Below, in pieces: positions 20,873-63,286 of a stretch of 64,000 nucleotides of DNA. This stretch comes from Methanoregula sp. PtaB.Bin085 (GTDB taxonomy: Archaea; Halobacteriota; Methanomicrobia; Methanomicrobiales; Methanospirillaceae), in assembly GCF_002067035.1 (NCBI RefSeq), contig NZ_MVQB01000014.1, positions 1 through 64,000 of the forward strand, in the 5' to 3' direction. The notes under the pieces are model-generated. The model had not been told where the DNA came from. It worked only from the letters and a program-made list of their open reading frames with translations, and did not search any database. A program made the translations under genes and the position numbers. The stretch's first letter is position 1. Every line of letters begins with the position of its first letter.

Positions 20873-22327
20873 ATGGGAATAGCATTCGAAAGTCTTGCCA
20901 GCGATATCGCAGGACGGAGCGGGAAACTGACCGTTGGAAAAAAGTCTATAAAAACTCCGGCTCTTCTCCCGGTCATCAACCCCCACCTCCCTCTGGTGAC
21001 CCCCAATGAGATGCGGGCGATGGGGGTCGGGGCGCTCATCACCAATGCGTATATCTTTTCCCAGAGCAGGCAGTTCCGCGAACGCGCGCTGGATGAAGGC
21101 CTGCACAGGGTCCTTGATTATGACGGCATCATCATGACCGATTCCGGTTCGTTCCAGCTTTCGGTGTACGGGGAGGTTTCCATCACCAATACCGAGACCC
21201 TTGCATTCCAGAGAGACATCGGCAGCGATATCTGGGTGCCGCTCGATATCCCGACATCACCGGGATCCGACCGGACGACAACGGAACGGGAGCTTGCCAT
21301 AACCATGCAGCGCCTCAGGGAGGCAAAAGAGGTATTCGGCAGCGATGCCCCTCTTGCCGGCCCGATCCAGGGCGGAATCTTCGACGACCTCCGCGAACGG
21401 GCCGGCCGCGATGTGACCGCCCTGGGTTTCTCATTCTGCCCGATCGGTGCAGTCGTACCGCTCATGGAGGCGTACCGGTACCGCGATCTCGTCAGCGTGG
21501 TGATGGCTGCGAAGAAGACACTCTCTCCTTCGGCATGCGTCCACCTCTTCGGCGCCGGCCACCCGTCCATGTTCGCCCTTGCCACCGCCATGGGCTGCGA
21601 TCTGTTTGATTCAGCAGCATACGCGTTGTACGCAAAGGATGGCCGGTACCTTACGGCACACGGCAGCTACCGGATCAACGAGCTCACCGATCTCCCATGT
21701 GCCTGTGCGGTCTGCCGTTCACACACGGCAGAAGAACTCCGGTCGGACCCGGACCGCGAGCGTCTCCTCGCGCTCCATAACCTCCATGTCACTCTTGCCG
21801 AGATTTCCCGGATCCGGCAGGCCATTGCAGACGGGACGCTGTGGGAGCTCGTCGACGAACGGTGCCGGAGCCACCCGCAGCTCCTGTCTGGGTACCGGTC
21901 CCTGCTCGATCGTGCCCCGGAACTTGCACCATACGATGCAGTCTCCAAACGACGGTTCTTTTACCGGGGCGATGAGAGTTGCCGGCGGACGGAAGTCCTC
22001 CGGTATCAGGAGAACCTGTCCCGCATCCCCGTTGGGAAGAACGTCCTCGTGGCATTCGATGGCGGCGAGCGGGACGCGTTTGATACCACCCTGTTCTTCA
22101 AACCGCCTTTCGGGCCGTATCCCAGGGAACTGAAAGAGACATTCCCGATCGGGCCGTCGGAGATCCCCGAATGGGACGATGCCATGGTCCGCCAGGGATG
22201 CCGGGGAGTCCGGGTCCTCATGGGGAGTCATCCCGGGAGCAGGTTCACCGTTGTCTGCGGCCAGCGCTGGGTGCCGGTTGTCCGCGAAATACTGGGAGAT
22301 ATCCGGGTGATCCATGATGCGGATTAA
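20873..22327 (+). CDS. tgtA: tRNA-guanine(15) transglycosylase
   Basis: A 484-residue archaeal TGT that exchanges guanine-15 in the tRNA D-loop for preQ0, the first step of archaeosine synthesis on tRNA. Motifs: [17 protein letters not shown] at the start, catalytic Asp in [29 protein letters not shown], and [20 protein letters not shown]. The zinc site is CACAVCRSH with downstream His. The C-terminal domains C1/C2 follow, but there is no clear PUA domain, in line with split TgtA forms. It overlaps the next gene (arcS) by 14 nt. Confidence 0.95.
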
Positions 22328-27689: not shown

Positions 27690-28466
27690 ATGCCGTTCTG
27701 CACATCCTGTGGAAAAGAGGTTGAACCCGGGAAAAAGTTCTGTGAATACTGCGGAGCACCTGTTGAACAAACCCCTGCTGTTCCCCCGACGTATGCCGGA
27801 CCGGTCCCTCCTGCTGCATCCCCCCCGTTCCAGGCGGCACCACCGCCACCCGCAGGAAAATCCGGGCATGGTATGCTCATTGCGGGCATCATCGTTCTCC
27901 TTGTTATTATCGCGGTGGTCTATTTTGTCGGACTTCCGCTGATAAGCGGGACACAGGGTACCGGCCAAGTGCAAAAACAACAATCCTTGGTCCAGACACC
28001 GTTTCAGACACAACCGCCGGCACAATACAATCCGGTGTATACTTCTCTTCCTGTTCCTGCAGACACTCCTTCCGCCAGTCACACGTACGAAGAAAAATAC
28101 ACGGAAACCTATAAGCAGGTCTATGCAATCAACCAGGAGTTCAATGGCCAGAAAGCTATCTTTTCCCAGGACCTGACATCCCCACCCCTGTATATCAAAT
28201 TCAATATCACTCCACAGACCGAGATACGGGAGAAGGTCAACGATGTGGGGAACATGATCACAACGTCGTACATCAGCCCGAATTCATGGTTCAAAGTCAG
28301 CGTGTACGATGCCGGTAATGGAGGACTTGTCGAGCAGCAGGGATTCCAGAAAGGATTTGGTTCGGAAACCCGCCAGGAATTCATGGTGAGGGCCCCGGGT
28401 TCGTATCGTGTTGAGATGTCGGGCAATGCGGTTGTTGCAGATGTCCGGATTCTTACCGGAAAATAA
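27690..28466 (+). CDS. Zinc-ribbon membrane protein with extracytoplasmic domain
   Basis: A 258-residue protein. The N-terminal zinc ribbon MPFCTSCGKEVEPGKKFCEYCG is followed by a Pro/Ala-rich linker, one membrane helix (MLIAGIIVLLVIIAVVYFVG), a Gln/Pro/Thr-rich stalk, and a C-terminal domain. In that domain PPLYIKFNITP, SPNSWFKVSVYD and QQGFQKGFG match the lipoprotein at 7622-8473. So the ribbon lies inside and the domain outside. Function unknown; the plan resembles a small sensor or anchor. Similar ribbon-plus-helix starts occur in the two genes at 47-49 kb. Confidence 0.82.
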   Translation: MPFCTSCGKEVEPGKKFCEYCGAPVEQTPAVPPTYAGPVPPAASPPFQAAPPPPAGKSGHGMLIAGIIVLLVIIAVVYFVGLPLISGTQGTGQVQKQQSLVQTPFQTQPPAQYNPVYTSLPVPADTPSASHTYEEKYTETYKQVYAINQEFNGQKAIFSQDLTSPPLYIKFNITPQTEIREKVNDVGNMITTSYISPNSWFKVSVYDAGNGGLVEQQGFQKGFGSETRQEFMVRAPGSYRVEMSGNAVVADVRILTGK

Positions 28467-39156: not shown

Positions 39157-39291
39157 TTCCATTTTTTCCTTTTTCAAATTATTCCGGCTGATTGCTGCCA
39201 TTGATATGAGGGGCTTTTCCAGTTTTTTAAACGGATGCCCTGGAGAAGCGGATATGAACGATTGTTTACACCAGACTGTAATTGAATACTG

Positions 39292-39441
39292 ATGGGAGCT
39301 GATGCCCCCATACCCCCGTTGCGATATCTGCCGCCGCCCCCGCGGGGGCGCTCCAGCGGCGGCCTTCAGTTCCTGTTTCCCGGACCTGCTCTCGCTCCGC
39401 CGTGCCGCGGAGCGGCCCTGATGAGGGGAGCCCTCTCGAAT
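39292..39441 (-). repeat. Dispersed repeat, family 1, copy A
   Basis: Lies in the 436-nt gap between ilvN and a convergent small gene. Contains CTGATGCCCCCATACCCCCG, the GC-rich hairpin CCGCCCCCGCGGGGGCG, and GCCGCGGAGCGGCCCTGATG. Five other copies share these blocks in the same order or inverted. The orientation is minus relative to copies B-E. Confidence 0.8.
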
Positions 39442-45403: not shown

Positions 45404-45514
45404 ATGTTCGGATTGCCGTTTATCACCATTGCTCTCGTCGGGGGAGCGTTTCTTGCCATTGTTGTCGCATTGCTGTACTGGGCTCTGACCTTTACGGAGG
45501 ATATCCATGGCTGA
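45404..45514 (+). CDS. Symporter small accessory protein (36 residues)
   Basis: ATG 45404 opens a 36-codon frame. It starts MFGLPFITIALVGGAFL, continues with a hydrophobic helix to LLYWALTF, and ends TEDIHG. A single membrane helix with a short acidic tail, followed by overlap of its TGA (45512-45514) with the start of the symporter gene (ATG 45507), fits the small accessory proteins encoded just before SSS-family symporters in prokaryotes. TTATATGTTA at 45368-45377 is a possible TATA box. It may stabilise or regulate the symporter. Confidence 0.75.
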   Translation: MFGLPFITIALVGGAFLAIVVALLYWALTFTEDIHG

Positions 45515-47018
45515 AATTATCGAGATCATCCTTGTCGGCCTGTATTTCCTTGCCATGATTGGAATCGGAGTCTATGCATCGAAGAAGATCCAGAACATGG
45601 AGGATTATGTCGTTGCAGGCCGATCCCTTGGATTCTGGGTCTTCACACTCCTCATGATCGGCTCAGTCTGCTCAGGCATGTCCCTCCTTGGCGTGTCCGG
45701 CCTCGGGTTCAAGTTTGCCTGGCCGACCATCTGGGAGCAGCTTGCCGTCCCGCTCTCCATCGCGTTCTGTATCATCTTCTTTGGCTACAAGATGCACATG
45801 ATCGCAAAAAAGGCCGGGTATATTACCGTGCAGGATTACCTTGCCCACCGGTACGAGAGCAACACGACCCTGAGGGGCCTGAGTGCGCTCTCGGGGATTG
45901 TCGTCTCCATGATCTATCTTGCCGGCCAGTACACCGCAGTCAGCATCATCCTGATGTGGCTCTTTGACCTGCCGCATCTCTGGGCGCTCCTGCTCGGAGC
46001 TGCTATTGTCACCATCTATACGGTTATCGGAGGGCTCTACGCGGTCTCGTGGACAACGCTCGTCCAGGGCATCATGCTGATCGCGGGTGTTGTCATCATG
46101 GCCCCCATCGTCATCATGGCAGCCGGGGGATTCACCCATGTCAACGAAGTAATGGCTGCGGCCAATCCTGTCAACGTTGACCCATGGATGACTGCCCCGG
46201 GAAGCGTCTTTATCCCGGAGTATATCGTCTCGTTCATCCTTCTCCTCACCATCGGCCTCGCCTGCGCACCGCACGTTATCAACAACGTTCTGGCCGCAAA
46301 AGACGTCAGGTACTTTAAATGGGCACCCCTTATCGCCTTTGTTATCTACGGGGTTGTGATGTTCCTGCTGAAATTTGCAGGATTTGCAGGCATGTCGATG
46401 GTCAAGGAGGGTCTCATTGTCATGCCTGACGTGAAGAACGCTTCGGATTACATATTTGTCGTTGCGATTGAATACGCGATGCCGAATATCTTCATATGGG
46501 GTATCCTTGGCGTGATTGTCCTTGCGGCTGTCATGTCAACAACCGACCGGCTGATGCTCACCATCGGGACCTATTTTTCATGGGATATTTACAAGAAAAT
46601 CCTCAGGCCTGATGCACCGGAAGACAGGGTCCTGATGGTCAGCCGGATCTCTGTCTTCGCTGCAGCTGCAATAACACTCCTCATGGCAATCAATCCCCCC
46701 GACATGCTCGTCTGGCTTATCTGGGCGGGCATCGGGATCATGTTCTCGACCTTTGCCGTTCCGCTCCTCGCCGGGCTCTACTGGAGGGGTGCTACCCGCG
46801 AGGGAGCTATCGCATCCATGGCACTTGGTCTTGTATCGGCGCTGTTCTTCGGCGGCCTCAGTTACTTCAAGATCAAAATCTTTGCCATGCCCATGCACTT
46901 CTCGTTCTATGCGTTTGTCCTCTCGGTGCTTGCCATGATTATCGTGAGCATGATGACAAAGAAGACACCGGATAAAATTCTTGATGAGACAATGACCGGC
47001 TGGTATATCCGGAAATAA
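45507..47018 (+). CDS. Sodium:solute symporter (SSS family)
   Basis: A 503-residue membrane protein with about 13 helices. Family features: IGVYASKKIQNMEDYVVAGR (the N-terminal SSS signature), a GSVCSGMSLLGVSGLGF stretch, and the central ISGVIGGLYAV-like segment TIYTVIGGLYAVSWTTLVQG. LGVIVLAAVMSTTDRLMLTI holds the Na2-site Ser/Thr residues. The family carries proline, pantothenate, acetate and many other solutes; no substrate can be named. Translationally coupled to the 36-residue accessory gene. It faces away from livG. Confidence 0.93.
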   Translation: MAEIIEIILVGLYFLAMIGIGVYASKKIQNMEDYVVAGRSLGFWVFTLLMIGSVCSGMSLLGVSGLGFKFAWPTIWEQLAVPLSIAFCIIFFGYKMHMIAKKAGYITVQDYLAHRYESNTTLRGLSALSGIVVSMIYLAGQYTAVSIILMWLFDLPHLWALLLGAAIVTIYTVIGGLYAVSWTTLVQGIMLIAGVVIMAPIVIMAAGGFTHVNEVMAAANPVNVDPWMTAPGSVFIPEYIVSFILLLTIGLACAPHVINNVLAAKDVRYFKWAPLIAFVIYGVVMFLLKFAGFAGMSMVKEGLIVMPDVKNASDYIFVVAIEYAMPNIFIWGILGVIVLAAVMSTTDRLMLTIGTYFSWDIYKKILRPDAPEDRVLMVSRISVFAAAAITLLMAINPPDMLVWLIWAGIGIMFSTFAVPLLAGLYWRGATREGAIASMALGLVSALFFGGLSYFKIKIFAMPMHFSFYAFVLSVLAMIIVSMMTKKTPDKILDETMTGWYIRK

Positions 47019-47113: not shown

Positions 47114-47824
47114 ATGACCATGGCGCAGCAATGTCCCCGTTGTTCCAGTATCAATGATGATTCGGTTAAATTCTGCACGGCCTGCGGTGCGCCCCTTGTG
47201 CCGGCAACCGGGCAAACCCCGATCGCACCGCTGCCGGCACCATCAGCAATGTCTCCAAAAAAACCCGGGGGAATAAAAATCCTTGCGGCAGCGATCCTTG
47301 TCATCATCACAATCATTGCCGCCCTTGCCCTTCTCCACGCAACTGGTACCGTGAAGATCCTGCCTTCGCCTGCTCCGGAAGCCACTCCTTCAGCAACGCC
47401 GGTACCGGCACTGACGATGCACCTTCCTCCTGAAACGACAATAACGGTTCCACCTCCTGATGATACCCCGGTTCCTGTTTCATTCGAACCCTCTTTACCG
47501 GCCACAAGCCCGCCCCCGACAAAAACTATCACCTGCCCGTCCGACCGCCGGGTATGCGGTGCCAACTGCACGGACATCATGAACGATCGCGAGAACTGCG
47601 GCGATTGCGGCGTCACCTGCTTCCCGGGGCAGATGTGCCTGACGGGACACTGCCGCAATGAATGCAATTCCGGAGAGATAAGCTGTTTTGACGGGTGCCA
47701 TAACCTGTCAACCGATACTGAGAACTGCGGCACCTGCGGGAACATCTGTTCCTTCGGGCTTGAATGCAACCGGAGCGTATGCAGCGCACCGGTAACAACG
47801 GTTATCCCGACGTATGCCGGGTAA
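47114..47824 (+). CDS. Zinc-ribbon membrane protein with extracellular Cys-rich repeats
   Basis: A 236-residue protein. The N-terminal zinc ribbon CPRCSSINDDSVKFCTACG is followed by a Pro-rich linker, one membrane helix (ILAAAILVIITIIAALALL), and a Pro/Thr-rich stalk. Two Cys repeats follow, of the pattern C..G.C.D...D..NCG.CG..C..G..C..G.C, for example NCGDCGVTCFPGQMC and NCGTCGNICSFGLEC. These resemble the Cys-rich domains known from myxobacterial (MXAN_6577-like) proteins. The repeats should lie outside and be disulfide-bonded. It precedes a paralog by 8 nt. ATG 47120 is an alternative start. Confidence 0.8.
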   Translation: MTMAQQCPRCSSINDDSVKFCTACGAPLVPATGQTPIAPLPAPSAMSPKKPGGIKILAAAILVIITIIAALALLHATGTVKILPSPAPEATPSATPVPALTMHLPPETTITVPPPDDTPVPVSFEPSLPATSPPPTKTITCPSDRRVCGANCTDIMNDRENCGDCGVTCFPGQMCLTGHCRNECNSGEISCFDGCHNLSTDTENCGTCGNICSFGLECNRSVCSAPVTTVIPTYAG

Positions 47825-47832
47825 CAGGGAGC

Positions 47833-49059
47833 GTGAAGATTTTGCCAGTATGTCCTGAATGCGGAAATGGGTATGCCAGCGGAGATGAATTCTGCAGATC
47901 CTGCGGCACAGCGCTGCCGTCTTTTCAGCTCGGTCCGCCAGGACCGGTGGATTCCTCCCCGGCACGTGGCGCACCCCACCATTCATTGCGGGAACACGAG
48001 GCCCGGAAGGCACCGGCTCATGCCCCGCATAAACCCCCGCTGAAGCTGCCGACGATACCCCTGCCGCTTCTTGCCGGGGGGATTGTACTTATCCTGCTCG
48101 TGATCGGGGCCATATGGTTCTTCGGTTCTTCGGGTTTCACCATCCCGGGCGGCGCAAAGAACACCTCGACAGACTCTTCCGATACCGGTTCACAGCAGAA
48201 GAGCACCGGGATCCCGCCGGTCGATGGCAGATGCTCCGAAGGCCTGTCCCATTGCAGTGGCTCGTGCGTTGATCTCAGGACAGACCTGAACAACTGCGGG
48301 GGCTGCGGTTTTTCCGTCCCCTTCGGCGAAACCTGCATCAACGGGAAGTTCAGCGGGACCGTGCTCCCGAAGACAACGGTGACATCGCTGAAATCCGGCA
48401 ACGCATCCACGACCGCTGCCGGCACACAGGGGTCCTGTCCGTCCGGCCAGACTTCCTGCAGCGGCAGCTGCAGGAACCTCCTGATCGATGCGGCAAACTG
48501 CGGATCCTGCGAACATTCCTGCATCTACGGCCAGACCTGCCAGAACGGGCAGTGCGTTCCTGTCCCGACCGCGACAGCCGCTGCGACAACCAGTCCCCCG
48601 GCAACGCTGGTGGTGGACCTGGTCTGCTCGGGCCGGGAAACCGCCTGCGGCAATGCCTGCGTTGATGTCTTTACGGATAAGAAGAACTGCGGGGTCTGTG
48701 GCAGGGTATGCAAGGCCGGGGAAATCTGCATGGATGGCCGCTGCGGGCCGGCATGTGCCGGTAACGGGACAACGCTGTGCAATGATCTCTGCGTTGACCT
48801 TGACACCGATATCGACAACTGCGGGGCCTGTGGTGCTGAATGCAAGACCCTGCTTCCCAATGCGAAAGGATCCCTATGCTCCGGCGGGGAGTGTACGCTC
48901 TCGGGCTGCAAGACGGATTATGCCGATTGCGACAAGTCCTTTTCCAACGGCTGCGAGATTTATCTCAAGAACGACGCGAACAACTGCGGATCATGCGGAA
49001 AGAAATGTCCGTCCGGCCAGGTCTGCTACAACAAGAAATGTACAAAACCGGCAACATAA
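47833..49059 (+). CDS. Paralogous zinc-ribbon membrane protein with several Cys-rich repeats
   Basis: A 408-residue protein starting at GTG 47833, 8 nt after the preceding gene. It has zinc ribbon CPECGNGYASGDEFCRSCG, membrane helix (IPLPLLAGGIVLILLVIGAIW), a Ser/Thr-rich stalk, then five Cys repeats (NNCGGCGFSVPFGETC, ANCGSCEHSCIYGQTC, KNCGVCGRVCKAGEIC, DNCGACGAECKTLLP and NNCGSCGKKCPSGQVC). The first has lost one Cys (FSVPFG). Probable surface adhesin or structural protein. The start is weakly supported, but no other in-frame initiator precedes the ribbon. Confidence 0.78.
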   Translation: MKILPVCPECGNGYASGDEFCRSCGTALPSFQLGPPGPVDSSPARGAPHHSLREHEARKAPAHAPHKPPLKLPTIPLPLLAGGIVLILLVIGAIWFFGSSGFTIPGGAKNTSTDSSDTGSQQKSTGIPPVDGRCSEGLSHCSGSCVDLRTDLNNCGGCGFSVPFGETCINGKFSGTVLPKTTVTSLKSGNASTTAAGTQGSCPSGQTSCSGSCRNLLIDAANCGSCEHSCIYGQTCQNGQCVPVPTATAAATTSPPATLVVDLVCSGRETACGNACVDVFTDKKNCGVCGRVCKAGEICMDGRCGPACAGNGTTLCNDLCVDLDTDIDNCGACGAECKTLLPNAKGSLCSGGECTLSGCKTDYADCDKSFSNGCEIYLKNDANNCGSCGKKCPSGQVCYNKKCTKPAT

Positions 49060-49134: not shown

Positions 49135-49898
49135 GTGGAAGGATCGGCGGACTGGTTCTCACAGGGCCTCGTCCATGTTGAAAACAAGGAATATGACAAC
49201 GCCCTTGCTGCATTCGACCGGGCAATCATGTACAACCAGTCTTGTGGTGAGGCATGGTACAATCGCGGCCTGGTCTGTATGCAGACCGGGAATTATGATC
49301 AGGCTCTCCATTCGTTCGACCAGGCCTTGCTGTACCACACTGATGACGACATGATAAAAAAGGCAAGGGAAGCTGTCCTTGAACTGATGAAAAACAGGAA
49401 AAACCCCGCGGTGTATCCAACGCGCTCTCATCGTACCAGCCAATCCGGATCACGGAGGTCCCTCCTCATGAACCCCCGGCCTTCCCGGGTATCCGGGATA
49501 CATTCTCCAATCCGCATCTTATCGTTCTCCTGTTCATTATTTTCGTCCTGCTCGGGAGCATGGGAGCCCTGGCATTCGGTGCAGGATTCGGGGTATCAAA
49601 GGGCAGCCATCATACCAGACTTGTATCGGCAACTGCGATGCAGCCGGCCTCTGGAATAATCCGTGTGACATACCAGGGGGGCGATGATGCGGCAAAGGTA
49701 AACCAGCTGATTGTCGTGGTTACGGATTCCGAGGGGACTTCCTACATACATTCCCTGGGAAAACGCGGCAATACCACACCACTCCAGACCGGAAGCACTG
49801 TTTCCATTACCGGTCGGTTTATTGGGAAGGACCATGTCGTTGCCACCGCCCTGTACATGGACGGGTCCGGAAAGGAAATACTCAATGTATATATCTGA
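49135..49898 (+). pseudogene. TPR plus membrane-anchored protein, frameshifted
   Basis: From GTG 49135 the frame encodes TPR repeats (FSQGLVHVENKEYDNALAAF; AWYNRGLVCMQTGNYDQALHSF) and then runs off into meaningless sequence. A second frame, one nt earlier, reads on from SNALSSYQPIRITEVPPHEPP through a membrane helix (LIVLLFIIFVLLGSMGALAF). Its beta-rich domain (GIIRVTYQGGDDAAKVNQL, GSTVSITGRFIGKDHVVATA) ends at 49898. One missing base in A-runs 49390-49394 or 49399-49403 would join them into a protein of about 250 residues. The C-terminal domain resembles archaellin/pilin-like DUF1628 pieces, but I am unsure. Confidence 0.7.
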
Positions 49899-50074: not shown

Positions 50075-51391
50075 GTGACAACAGCGATCCTTGGCGGAGG
50101 TCTCACAGGAGTGACCCTTGCCCGCCTCCTTCACGAGCGTGGCGAGAAGGTCGTCGTTCTCGAAGCGGAACCGGTGATAGGCGGGCTCTGCCGTTCCCGG
50201 CAGGAGAACGGGTTCACCTTTGATACCGGCGGCTCCCACATCATTTTTTCGAAGGATACCGAGGTTCTCGGGTTCATGCGCCGGATGATTGCGGGGAACG
50301 AACAGCGCAATGACCGCAACACCAAGATCTTCTACATGGGAAAGCACGTGAAGTACCCGTTCGAGAATGGGCTGTACGAACTCCCTCCCGACGACCGGTT
50401 CGCCTGCATCAACGGGTTCATCAACACTCTCATCGCTGTTGAGACGGGTAAGATCCGGCCGCCAAAGAATTTCCGCGAATGGATCTATTACACGTTCGGC
50501 CCCGGGATCGCCGAGTGCTACATGGTGCCGTACAACGAGAAGATCTGGAAATACCCCACGGAGAAAATGTCCCTGCACTGGGTCAACGGCCGCATTCCCC
50601 GGCCGCCGGTGGAGGATATCATAAAGTCGGCCATCGGCATCGAGACCGAAGGGTACACGCACCAGGCTGTCTTTTCGTACCCGCTGGACGGCGGGATCGA
50701 GGCGCTCGTTGCCGCGATCGCCCGGCCGGTCCTCCCGTTCATCCGGACCGGCTTCCGGGTAACCTCGCTGAAAAAAATCGGGTCCCTGTGGGAGATCAGC
50801 AACGGGACGGAGACAGTGACCACTGACCGGGTCATCTGTACGATACCGATCCAGCACCTGCTTCCCTGCCTTGAAAAGGTTCCGGCAAAGGTGACAAAGG
50901 CCTGCAATTCTTTAGTCTACAACTCTCTCATCTGCGTCAACATCGGCATCCGGGGCACGATCCCACCGGTTTCGTGGATGTACATTCCCGACCGGAACCT
51001 CGGGAAGACCAATCGCCTCTCGTTCCCGTCCAGCTTCAGCCGGCACACGGCGCCGGACGGCTGCAGCGCGATCCTCGCGGAGATCACCCACCAGCCAGGC
51101 GACGAGATCAGCACGATGACGGATGCCGAGGCAACGGAAGAGGTCATCGGGATGCTGGAGAAGATGCAGATCTGCACCCGGAACCAGGTCGTCTTCACGT
51201 CCGTGCAGCGCCAGCCGTTCGCGTACGTTGTCTACGACCTCGCGTACCAGAAGAACATTGCAACGGTCCGGGAGTTCTGCGCATCGAAGGAGATCCCGCT
51301 CGTGGGCCGGTTCGCGCAGTTCGAGTACCTGAACATGGACGCCTGCATCCGCAGCGTCATTGACTTCGTCGCACGATACCCGCGTGAATAA
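50075..51391 (+). CDS. FAD-dependent amine-oxidase/protoporphyrinogen-oxidase-like protein
   Basis: A 438-residue flavoprotein. The dinucleotide motif TAILGGGLTGVTLARLLHER is at the start, with the acid in VVVLEAEPVIGGLCRS and GFTFDTGGSHIIF, as in UDP-galactopyranose mutase and HemG/HemY-like proteins. YTFGPGIAECYMVPYNEKIW resembles the glycan-related members. It is followed by a GT2 glycosyltransferase gene 60 nt downstream, so a role in surface glycan or lipid synthesis is plausible. GTG start at 50075. Substrate unknown. Confidence 0.8.
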   Translation: MTTAILGGGLTGVTLARLLHERGEKVVVLEAEPVIGGLCRSRQENGFTFDTGGSHIIFSKDTEVLGFMRRMIAGNEQRNDRNTKIFYMGKHVKYPFENGLYELPPDDRFACINGFINTLIAVETGKIRPPKNFREWIYYTFGPGIAECYMVPYNEKIWKYPTEKMSLHWVNGRIPRPPVEDIIKSAIGIETEGYTHQAVFSYPLDGGIEALVAAIARPVLPFIRTGFRVTSLKKIGSLWEISNGTETVTTDRVICTIPIQHLLPCLEKVPAKVTKACNSLVYNSLICVNIGIRGTIPPVSWMYIPDRNLGKTNRLSFPSSFSRHTAPDGCSAILAEITHQPGDEISTMTDAEATEEVIGMLEKMQICTRNQVVFTSVQRQPFAYVVYDLAYQKNIATVREFCASKEIPLVGRFAQFEYLNMDACIRSVIDFVARYPRE

Positions 51392-51451: not shown

Positions 51452-52150
51452 ATGATTTCGGTTGTCATCCCCACCTTCAATGAAGAAGAGAACATCGCCC
51501 AGTGCCTGGTCTCGCTTACGCATCAGACCGTGCCGCGCAGCGAGTACGAGATCATCGTTGTGGACGGCGGCTCGAAGGACGCCACGTGCGAGATCGCGAA
51601 GAAATATGCCGACCAGGTCTTCACCCAGACCAGCCGGAAGGTCGGCGGGGCACGCAACGACGGCGTGATGGCGGCAAAGGGGGATATCATTGCAACAACC
51701 GATGCCGACTGCATCCTCCCGCCGCACTGGATCAAGCGGATCGCGGAGGATTTCAAAGACCCCGGCATTGCGCAGGTGTACGGCCCGGTGTATCCCATCG
51801 AGGAAGGCATCGGCAACCAGATCTCGCTTGTCATGGCAAACACCTTCTCCCGGCTCGGGTATTACAGCCGGACGTTCTACTACACGCTCGGGTGCAACAC
51901 CGCGTTCCGGAAGGACGCGTTTGTCAAAGCCGGCATGTACCGCTGCATCGATGCGGGCGACGACCTCGAAGTCTCCATGCGGCTCAAGGATTACGGCCGC
52001 ATCTACTTCGATAACCGTCTCAAGGTCGGGTTCTCGATGCGGCGCTACCAGAAGTTCGGCACTGTCCAGTCGATCTACGAGTGGATGCACATCGTGTCCG
52101 AAGGCGGCGAGAGCGCGAAATACTCCTACACGCAGAAGAAATACAAGTAG
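51452..52150 (+). CDS. Family 2 glycosyltransferase
   Basis: A 232-residue GT-A enzyme. MISVVIPTFNEEENIAQCLV at the N-terminus, IIVVDGGSKDATCEIAKKY (nucleotide site), and ATTDADCILPPHW (the D-x-D-like metal motif). CNTAFRKDAFVKAGMY and DAGDDLEVSMRLKDYG correspond to the acceptor/ED region. No membrane helices are seen, so it acts at the cytoplasmic face. Probably transfers a sugar to a lipid or surface glycan, together with the preceding flavoprotein. Confidence 0.93.
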   Translation: MISVVIPTFNEEENIAQCLVSLTHQTVPRSEYEIIVVDGGSKDATCEIAKKYADQVFTQTSRKVGGARNDGVMAAKGDIIATTDADCILPPHWIKRIAEDFKDPGIAQVYGPVYPIEEGIGNQISLVMANTFSRLGYYSRTFYYTLGCNTAFRKDAFVKAGMYRCIDAGDDLEVSMRLKDYGRIYFDNRLKVGFSMRRYQKFGTVQSIYEWMHIVSEGGESAKYSYTQKKYK

Positions 52151-52680: not shown

Positions 52681-52819
52681 TTATGATGGCTCCCCGCCTC
52701 AGGGCCTCTTCGAAGCACGGCGGGGCTAGAGCAGGTCAGGGAAAACCGGTAATTGAAGGCTGCCGCGGGAGCGCCCCCGCGGGGGCGGCGGCATGTATCA
52801 CAATGGGGGTATGGGGGCA
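52681..52819 (+). repeat. Dispersed repeat, family 1, copy C
   Basis: Starts TTATGATGGCTCCCCGCC, contains CTTCGAAGCACGGCGGGG, the hairpin GCGCCCCCGCGGGGGCGG, and ends GGGGGTATGGGGGCAAT. Lies in the 682-nt gap after the thioesterase gene. Confidence 0.8.
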
Positions 52820-54020: not shown

Positions 54021-54174
54021 ATTATGAGCCCTCCCCGCTTCAGGGCCGCTCCGCGGCACGGCGGGGCAAAAGCAGGTCCGGGAAAACAATATTTGGAGGC
54101 CGCCGCGGGAGCGCCCCCGCGGGGGCGGCGGCACGTATCAAAATGGGGGTATGGGGGCATCAGCCCCCATCATC
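54021..54174 (+). repeat. Dispersed repeat, family 1, copy D
   Basis: Begins TTATGAGCCCTCCCCGCTTC, contains GCCGCTCCGCGGCACGGCGG and the hairpin GCGCCCCCGCGGGGGCGGCG, and ends GGGGGTATGGGGGCATCAGC with CCCCCATCATCAT. Located in the 443-nt gap between the DUF2148 and GHMP genes; nothing else is seen there. Confidence 0.8.
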
Positions 54175-54273
54175 ATTTTGTTTTATTGAAAGATTTACTA
54201 ATGACGTTCCCTGCCGCATCACGCGTGAATAATAAACCTTAACATATGGACGCTCCCAACAGGACTGTTACCT

Positions 54274-55427: not shown

Positions 55428-55586
55428 ATTATGATGGCACCCCGCATCAGGGCCGCTCCGCGGCACGGCGGGGCCAGAGCGGGTTCCGGAAAAATGGTAA
55501 TTGAAAGCCGCCGCGAGAGCGCCCCCGCGGGGGCGGCGGCCGTTCATCTTAATTGGGGGTATGGCGGTCTCAACCCTCATGATCAT
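55428..55586 (+). repeat. Dispersed repeat, family 1, copy E
   Basis: Starts TTATGATGGCACCCCGCATC, contains GCCGCTCCGCGGCACGGCGG and GCGCCCCCGCGGGGGCGGCG, and ends TTGGGGGTATGGCGGTCTC. Lies between the GHMP gene and the convergent dedA gene; the 332-nt gap has nothing else. Confidence 0.8.
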
Positions 55587-63127: not shown

Positions 63128-63286
63128 TGGATGGGGGCTGATCCCCCCATACCCCCGCCCCTTTGCAATATCTGCTGCCGCCCCCGCGAGGGCGCTCCCG
63201 CGGCGGCCTTCAACGCGCGTTTCCCGGAACCTGCTCTGGCCCTGCCGTGCCGCGGAGCGGCCCTGATGCGGGGAACACTCATATCA
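63128..63286 (-). repeat. Dispersed repeat, family 1, copy F
   Basis: Starts ATGGGGGCTGATCCCCCCAT, contains CCGCCCCCGCGAGGGCGCTC and TGCCGCGGAGCGGCCCTGAT, inverted relative to copies B-E. It lies in the 366-nt convergent gap before the RamA-like gene; nothing else is seen there. Confidence 0.8.

Follow-up and report, generated by a model that had tools for sequence, protein, structure and literature searches.

Tandem proteins of a Methanoregula genome that combine a zinc ribbon, a predicted membrane helix and cysteine-rich repeats shared with myxobacteria

Described relatives and layout of the two proteins

In plants, STIG1 is a secreted peptide of small size, and the cut-off of its Pfam model (PF04885, Stig1) is exceeded by two neighbouring proteins, here called protein 1 and protein 2, that are encoded in a stretch of 64,000 nucleotides of Methanoregula sp. 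PtaB.Bin085 (contig NZ_MVQB01000014.1, positions 1 to 64,000; hereafter the window). Unlike the complete plant model, the units in the window cover the profile in part, the best stretches spanning positions 42-83 and 42-82 of 85 and other units of protein 2 positions 20-57 and 16-54. Tandem units of eight cysteines are shared with the MXAN_6577-like family (NF041328) and other Stig1 proteins of myxobacteria and their relatives, and at 29 bacterial loci we found 40-46% identity to the unit pair of protein 1 over 83 residues. These bacterial proteins differ in two ways: a zinc ribbon before the helix was not seen in the reading frames examined, and the majority exceed the window proteins in length, the number of units reaching 52. 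A zinc ribbon membrane protein topology is found in TcaA/YvbJ of Firmicutes and resembles the layout of the window proteins, among whose profile matches neither of these families occurs. TcaA is described as a zinc ribbon protein (PMC10611510). The Myxococcus receptor TraA also carries cysteine-rich tandem repeats, together with a PA14 domain and a MYXO-CTERM that add to its architecture; these repeats are reported to lie outside the cell and are suggested to form a stalk (PMC3325183). The TraA-type repeat (TIGR04201) was rejected as an assignment, because the matches listed for the window proteins at E values up to 1 did not include it. Within the same order, TIR-(zinc ribbon)-helix proteins have a similar stem and one of them has the same ectodomain, whereas both window proteins are free of a TIR domain according to Pfam. 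A literature search by titles and abstract openings, with most subscription journals and bioRxiv outside its coverage, returned no description of these proteins.

The source genome comprises 2.9 Mb in 63 contigs, and a TgtA (archaeosine) gene at 20873-22324 (580.5 bits, cut-off 350) marks the window as archaeal. The features of the two proteins are as follows.

47114-47824, plus strand: protein 1, 236 aa, with the zinc ribbon at residues 7-28, the helix at 56-74, a Pro/Thr-rich stretch and two Stig1 units
47132-47197, plus strand: zinc ribbon of protein 1, CxxC-x10-CxxC (PF13240)
47279-47335, plus strand: predicted membrane helix of protein 1, residues 56-74 (hydropathy; helix 57-74 in the structure model)
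47534-47653, plus strand: unit 1 of protein 1, eight Cys (Stig1 stretch, Cys count)
47663-47782, plus strand: unit 2 of protein 1, eight Cys (Stig1 stretch, Cys count)
47833-49059, plus strand: protein 2, 408 aa, likely GTG start, with a zinc ribbon, the helix at residues 79-97 and five Stig1 units
47851-47916, plus strand: zinc ribbon of protein 2, four Cys
48067-48123, plus strand: predicted membrane helix of protein 2, residues 79-97 (hydropathy)
48232-48351, plus strand: unit 1 of protein 2, six Cys, without Cys 6 and Cys 8 (CGFSVPxG)
48436-48555, plus strand: unit 2 of protein 2, eight Cys
48625-48744, plus strand: unit 3 of protein 2, eight Cys
48754-48894, plus strand: unit 4 of protein 2, eight Cys, late loop longer
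48907-49041, plus strand: unit 5 of protein 2, eight Cys, early loop longer

Both chains run in the order zinc ribbon, Pro-rich stretch, hydrophobic helix, Pro/Thr/Ser-rich stretch and Stig1 units. Against the zinc ribbon model PF13240 (cut-off 25), protein 1 scored 27.3 bits and protein 2, with all four cysteines present, 23.9 bits, slightly below the cut-off; in a whole-genome scan that scored single places, both ribbons exceeded it. The Stig1 model (cut-off 24.1) gave 36.3 bits in two stretches for protein 1 and 92.3 bits in five stretches for protein 2, and the MXAN_6577-like model (cut-off 100) was passed by protein 2 with 124.5 bits and missed by protein 1 with 65.7 bits. The ATG at 47764 of the listed open reading frame (ORF) of protein 2 falls within protein 1, and the GTG at 47833 is the likelier start because an ATG sits just ahead of the zinc ribbon in three orthologues (G041, G038 and G066; G and L numbers are our labels for genomes and loci).

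Both proteins have the features of single-pass membrane proteins, namely one hydrophobic helix and a positive charge that is heavier on the inner side. The helices were called by hydropathy, not by a trained predictor, with values of 3.17 for protein 1 (equalled by none of 2000 shuffles) and 2.76 for protein 2 (equalled by two of 2000), and they do look like membrane helices, one of the two points, next to the occurrence of the repeats elsewhere in the order, by which the initial annotation of this locus could have been refuted. The full-length model of protein 1, used for the helix only given its low confidence (mean pLDDT 52.5), places it at residues 57-74. Of 16 proteins compared (both window proteins and 14 orthologues of protein 1), 13 have more Lys and Arg in the 20 residues ahead of the helix than in the 25 that follow, two have equal numbers and one, which is 5′-cut, has fewer. 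Elsewhere in archaea, Stig1 repeats also sit on proteins that by eye are lipoprotein-like or signal-peptide-like. Among the bacterial ORFs with repeats that are complete at the 5′ end, a lipobox-like site ends a hydrophobic stretch in 28 of 76, and 37 of the 76 have no hydrophobic stretch of that kind. The inside-outside layout of the two proteins is well supported at the level of sequence by the charge bias, by the same repeats on lipoprotein-like and signal-peptide-like proteins and by a TIR-zinc ribbon-helix-Stig1 relative described below, and very probably the zinc ribbon lies inside and a cysteine-rich stalk outside the cell. That each chain unites a zinc ribbon, one helix and two or five repeats, as initially annotated, is borne out by the PF13240 and Stig1 profiles and by hydropathy.

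The eight-cysteine unit and its distribution

A full unit holds eight cysteines within about 40 residues (consensus CPAGQTNCSGVCVDLQTDRANCGACGNACAAGQVCSAGAC). Of 1533 units that span the full length, 1530 have all eight, under a filter that favours intact units. Pfam places the unit in Stig1 and NCBIfam in the MXAN_6577-like family. The NCGxCGxxC motif by which the repeat was initially described is present but makes up only part of the unit. The first unit of protein 2 is without Cys 6 and Cys 8, likewise in the three readable orthologues (G041, G038 and G066), so that this unit is a kept variant and counts as one event; the paired absence argues for a 6-8 disulfide. A further 39 units, all from outside the archaea, lack both Cys 1 and Cys 2; eight of these were read, and the front end of such units may have been cut short. 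A disulfide map drawn from cysteine losses was given up except for the pair 6-8 and, in non-archaeal units, the pair 1-2, for which a case can be made; where Cys 1 alone is lost, the loss looks like an alignment slip across an insertion, and such units were set aside.

Given the predicted layout, 16 extracellular cysteines in protein 1 and 38 in protein 2 would have to be oxidised in a presumed strict anaerobe with no VKOR found, which raises the question of how this is done. VKOR was detected in none of the 39 genomes of the genus at E 1e-4, and no Thioredoxin_4 (DsbA-like) protein was found in the own genome. Both results would suit cysteines that bind metal or remain thiols instead of forming disulfides. 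We regard this as quite improbable, as some of the paired losses fit disulfides: Cys 6 is lost with Cys 8 in four protein 2 orthologues, a single event, and Cys 1 with Cys 2 in the non-archaeal units, for which front truncation would also serve. As a separate observation, secreted-looking proteins with many cysteines occur in the genus despite the count of zero for VKOR.

The AF2 model of the unit pair of protein 1, built on an alignment with 29 bacterial pairs, reached a mean pLDDT of 92.0 and a pTM of 0.58. No solved fold matched the pair by sequence at E 0.1, Foldseek returned no match at E 0.001 or better, and VIA-align gave no Z of at least 2 among 150 chains.

Stig1 units are carried by seven proteins of the own genome (L003-L008 and L038) in addition to the two described here, nine in all, and some of the seven are lipoprotein-like by eye. 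Stig1 was found in 28 of the 108 genomes of the family, belonging to 3 of 17 genera (E 0.001), and a scan of the phylum at the stricter threshold of 1e-6 was positive in 4 of 392 genomes, every one in this genus. Order-wide, the profile of the protein 1 family also produced matches to the Stig1 part in three genomes of another family (G109, G478 and G479), so the repeats do occur elsewhere in the order, though patchily. Two further loci (L013 in G061 and L015 in G035) hold tandem arrays of lipoprotein-like proteins of ~210 residues that have a single Stig1 unit plus another stretch at the C-terminus.

In the scan of named genomes, 419 of 558 listed stretches were confirmed, and the best retained were 79 loci in 25 record sets, the sets being counted by accession prefixes and records near the own genome possibly missing. 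Of these best 79 loci, 76 are labelled with names beginning in Myxococc, as Archangium or as 'delta' proteobacteria, and three (L075, L081 and L115) carry other labels. Pfam Stig1 at 1e-9 in six named genomes gave matches in three (1, 4 and 46) and none in the other three. The proposed myxobacterial likeness holds on these labels and on the MXAN_6577-like score, which is over the cut-off for protein 2 and under it for protein 1.

From the kept loci we read 91 unit-bearing bacterial ORFs, 76 of them complete at the 5′ end. A CxxC...CxxC pattern stands ahead of the units in seven of the 76, six times after the helix and once without a detected helix (L090), as well as in the 5′-cut L135. No zinc ribbon pattern before a helix was seen among the 91 ORFs, L135 (5′-cut) and L090 (helixless) not being judgeable in this respect. 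The repeat is common to archaea and bacteria, and the zinc ribbon fusion was seen in archaea only. The patchy occurrence in archaea is naturally read as a sharing of the domain between bacteria and methanogens, as initially suggested.

Orthologues and gene neighbourhood within the genus

Orthologues of protein 1 occur in 16 of the 39 genomes of the genus, two of them interrupted where a contig ends (that of G040 is spread over two contigs, that of G066 is cut at the 5′ end), and a seventeenth genome (G038) holds a remnant frame of 56 residues. Intact protein 1 is missing from 23 of the 39 genomes, some of which are incomplete, and the gene therefore looks dispensable. The four zinc cysteines and all 16 repeat cysteines are kept in 12 of 12 aligned orthologues (of the 16), all 12 of which are matched by PF13240; the G051 orthologue has an extra stretch without a Pfam match between the helix and the repeats. 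For two whole pairs of protein 1 the dN/dS was about 0.20-0.30 (NG86: 0.225 and 0.201), and for the first pair the Stig1 part taken by itself gave 0.082 (NG86 alone). A protein 2 pair, compared in two pieces, had values of 0.157 and 0.145 (NG86). Purifying selection acts on the orthologous pairs compared, and chance or artefact is rejected on the grounds of this selection and of the profile scores.

The neighbours of the two genes in the window are given below.

45507-47018, plus strand: Sodium:solute symporter (PF00474), the usual upstream neighbour
50075-51391, plus strand: FAD amine-oxidase-type oxidoreductase (PF01593), the conserved downstream neighbour
51452-52150, plus strand: family 2 glycosyltransferase (PF00535), the next downstream neighbour

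In 15 of the 16 genomes the oxidoreductase directly follows protein 1 on the same strand, the exception being the window, where they are separated by protein 2 and a TPR frame. A change of frame seems to have split one gene into this TPR frame (49135-49659) and an overlapping frame (49560-49898). Upstream, the symporter adjoins protein 1 in 13 of 16 genomes; it is displaced in G051, and a contig end takes its place in G066 and G040. Downstream, the glycosyltransferase comes next after the oxidoreductase in 15 of 16, G066 being left out of this check. Protein 1 is an old gene, and its tree shows the same main groups as the oxidoreductase tree. Mapped on the oxidoreductase tree, its presence required 4 changes against a shuffle mean of 12.3 and fell into two separate groups, a pattern that may reflect one gain followed by losses or a transfer into the same place.

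Such a conserved order might be taken to mean that protein 1 is an accessory of envelope glycan synthesis, serving as an acceptor or scaffold for the adjoining oxidoreductase and glycosyltransferase. We consider this role unlikely: the oxidoreductase was found in 38 of the 39 genomes (no match in G050), including 22 of the 23 without intact protein 1, and is thus independent of protein 1. Furthermore, the 20 stretches without protein 1 that were compared (G043 left out) include eight in which the symporter has closed up on the oxidoreductase, with a gap of 56-283 bases and nothing between, next to two with a gap of 2.3 kb and ten that show no symporter, some of them contig-cut.

The location of protein 2 also speaks against a glycan accessory. 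Its orthologues were found in only four other genomes of the 39 (G041, G038, G046 and G066), in each on a different contig from protein 1 or its remnant; ABC transporter genes near protein 2 are common to G041 and G066, and one other frame is common to G046 and G038. Since protein 2 lies elsewhere in every other genome, the tandem arrangement from which the initial annotation had started is real in this genome but private to it within the 39. The same part of the window (search covering 36000-64000) contains a G+C-rich dispersed repeat of ~110-130 bases in both orientations, at 39285-39435, 43604, 52681-52819, 54022-54177, 55429-55540 and 63158-63283.

The zinc ribbon-helix stem and its possible role

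Many other proteins of the order, among the matches listed for the protein 1 profile, align with it over the stem and not beyond. The zinc ribbon ORFs read in the own genome, 20 distinct ones from 30 loci, include two in addition to the proteins described here (L223, at 27690-28463 of the window, and L238) that have an N-terminal zinc ribbon and one helix followed by different outer parts. A protein of a sister genus (L282 of G011) consists of TIR_2 (77 bits), a zinc ribbon (26 bits, cut-off 25), a helix and Stig1 units, four by eye and three stretches by Pfam. This order puts the zinc ribbon on the side of the TIR domain, which is the cytosolic side. When the order was searched with the TIR and stem of L282, 33 of its 232 genomes gave 43 matches in total, and the window genome gave none at 1e-12. 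The 30 loci read (L295-L324) comprise 13 proteins of the type TIR-(zinc ribbon)-helix-outer part, 16 with a C-terminal TIR and one other. Seven of the 13, L282 included, have the zinc ribbon; nine have in common an ectodomain of about 110 residues that differs from Stig1, three have other outer parts (that of L320 resembles TPR repeats and perhaps does not lie outside), and the Stig1 ectodomain occurs in the G011 protein only. This pattern reads as an exchange of ectodomains on a common stem in these archaeal proteins.

Starting from the parts and their order, the orthology and synteny of protein 1, the purifying selection, the ectodomain exchange and the single TIR fusion, all read from the sequences, we propose that the two proteins are single-pass members of a modular surface-receptor chassis, in which binding by an outer rod is passed inward to a partner of the zinc ribbon; we put the chances of this proposal at about even. 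The N-terminus would lie in the cytosol with the zinc ribbon as a protein-interaction knob, one helix would hold the protein in the membrane, a flexible Pro/Thr-rich stretch would cross the envelope, and the Stig1/MXAN_6577 units would build a cysteine-braced rod outside. In the chassis, the stem of zinc ribbon and helix, at times with a TIR domain ahead, would be kept and the ectodomain swapped. The rod might bind a glycan, a neighbouring cell or the envelope, and the helix might relay this binding to a partner that the zinc ribbon has in the cytosol. For the TIR relative, rods that crowd together or bind outside could gather TIR domains inside; the same stem in the window proteins could only recruit a separate partner.

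A role as surface sensor or anchor is likely, and plain anchoring is nearly as likely as a signal step. Pfam revealed no effector domain in protein 1 or protein 2, and PADLOC defence families gave no match at E 0.01. The inside-outside layout on which the initial annotation had based signal transduction or anchoring is supported, and the window proteins, having no effector domain of their own, may be either receptors or anchors. If they are plain surface anchors, a cysteine-rich rod would be tethered as an adhesin, matrix component or S-layer spacer, and the zinc ribbon would aid folding or insertion and carry no signal. We give this a lesser but substantial probability. The missing effector domain would fit it, and so would the Stig1 units on lipoprotein-like proteins, which could not signal via a helix. 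It also agrees with the rigid stalk proposed for the cysteine-rich repeats of Myxococcus TraA, a different repeat (TIGR04201; PMC3325183). The zinc cysteines are, however, kept in the 12 aligned orthologues of 16 though lipoprotein-type anchors seem available in the genome, and a TIR domain is fused to the same stem in G011. This TIR-zinc ribbon-helix-Stig1 fusion is the best hint of signalling; that it was seen once, and in another genus, counts against a receptor role for the window proteins.

The findings link a repeat that is abundant in myxobacteria and their relatives to archaeal membrane proteins with an inside-outside axis, and the natural TIR-zinc ribbon-helix-Stig1 fusion makes the receptor idea testable. 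Tentatively, and with less assurance than for the chassis itself, these proteins may represent a modular archaeal surface receptor family in which a zinc ribbon-helix stem bears exchangeable ectodomains, some members having a cytosolic TIR domain in a Toll-like layout, in which the cysteine-rich repeat shared with myxobacteria would be one of the outer sensors.
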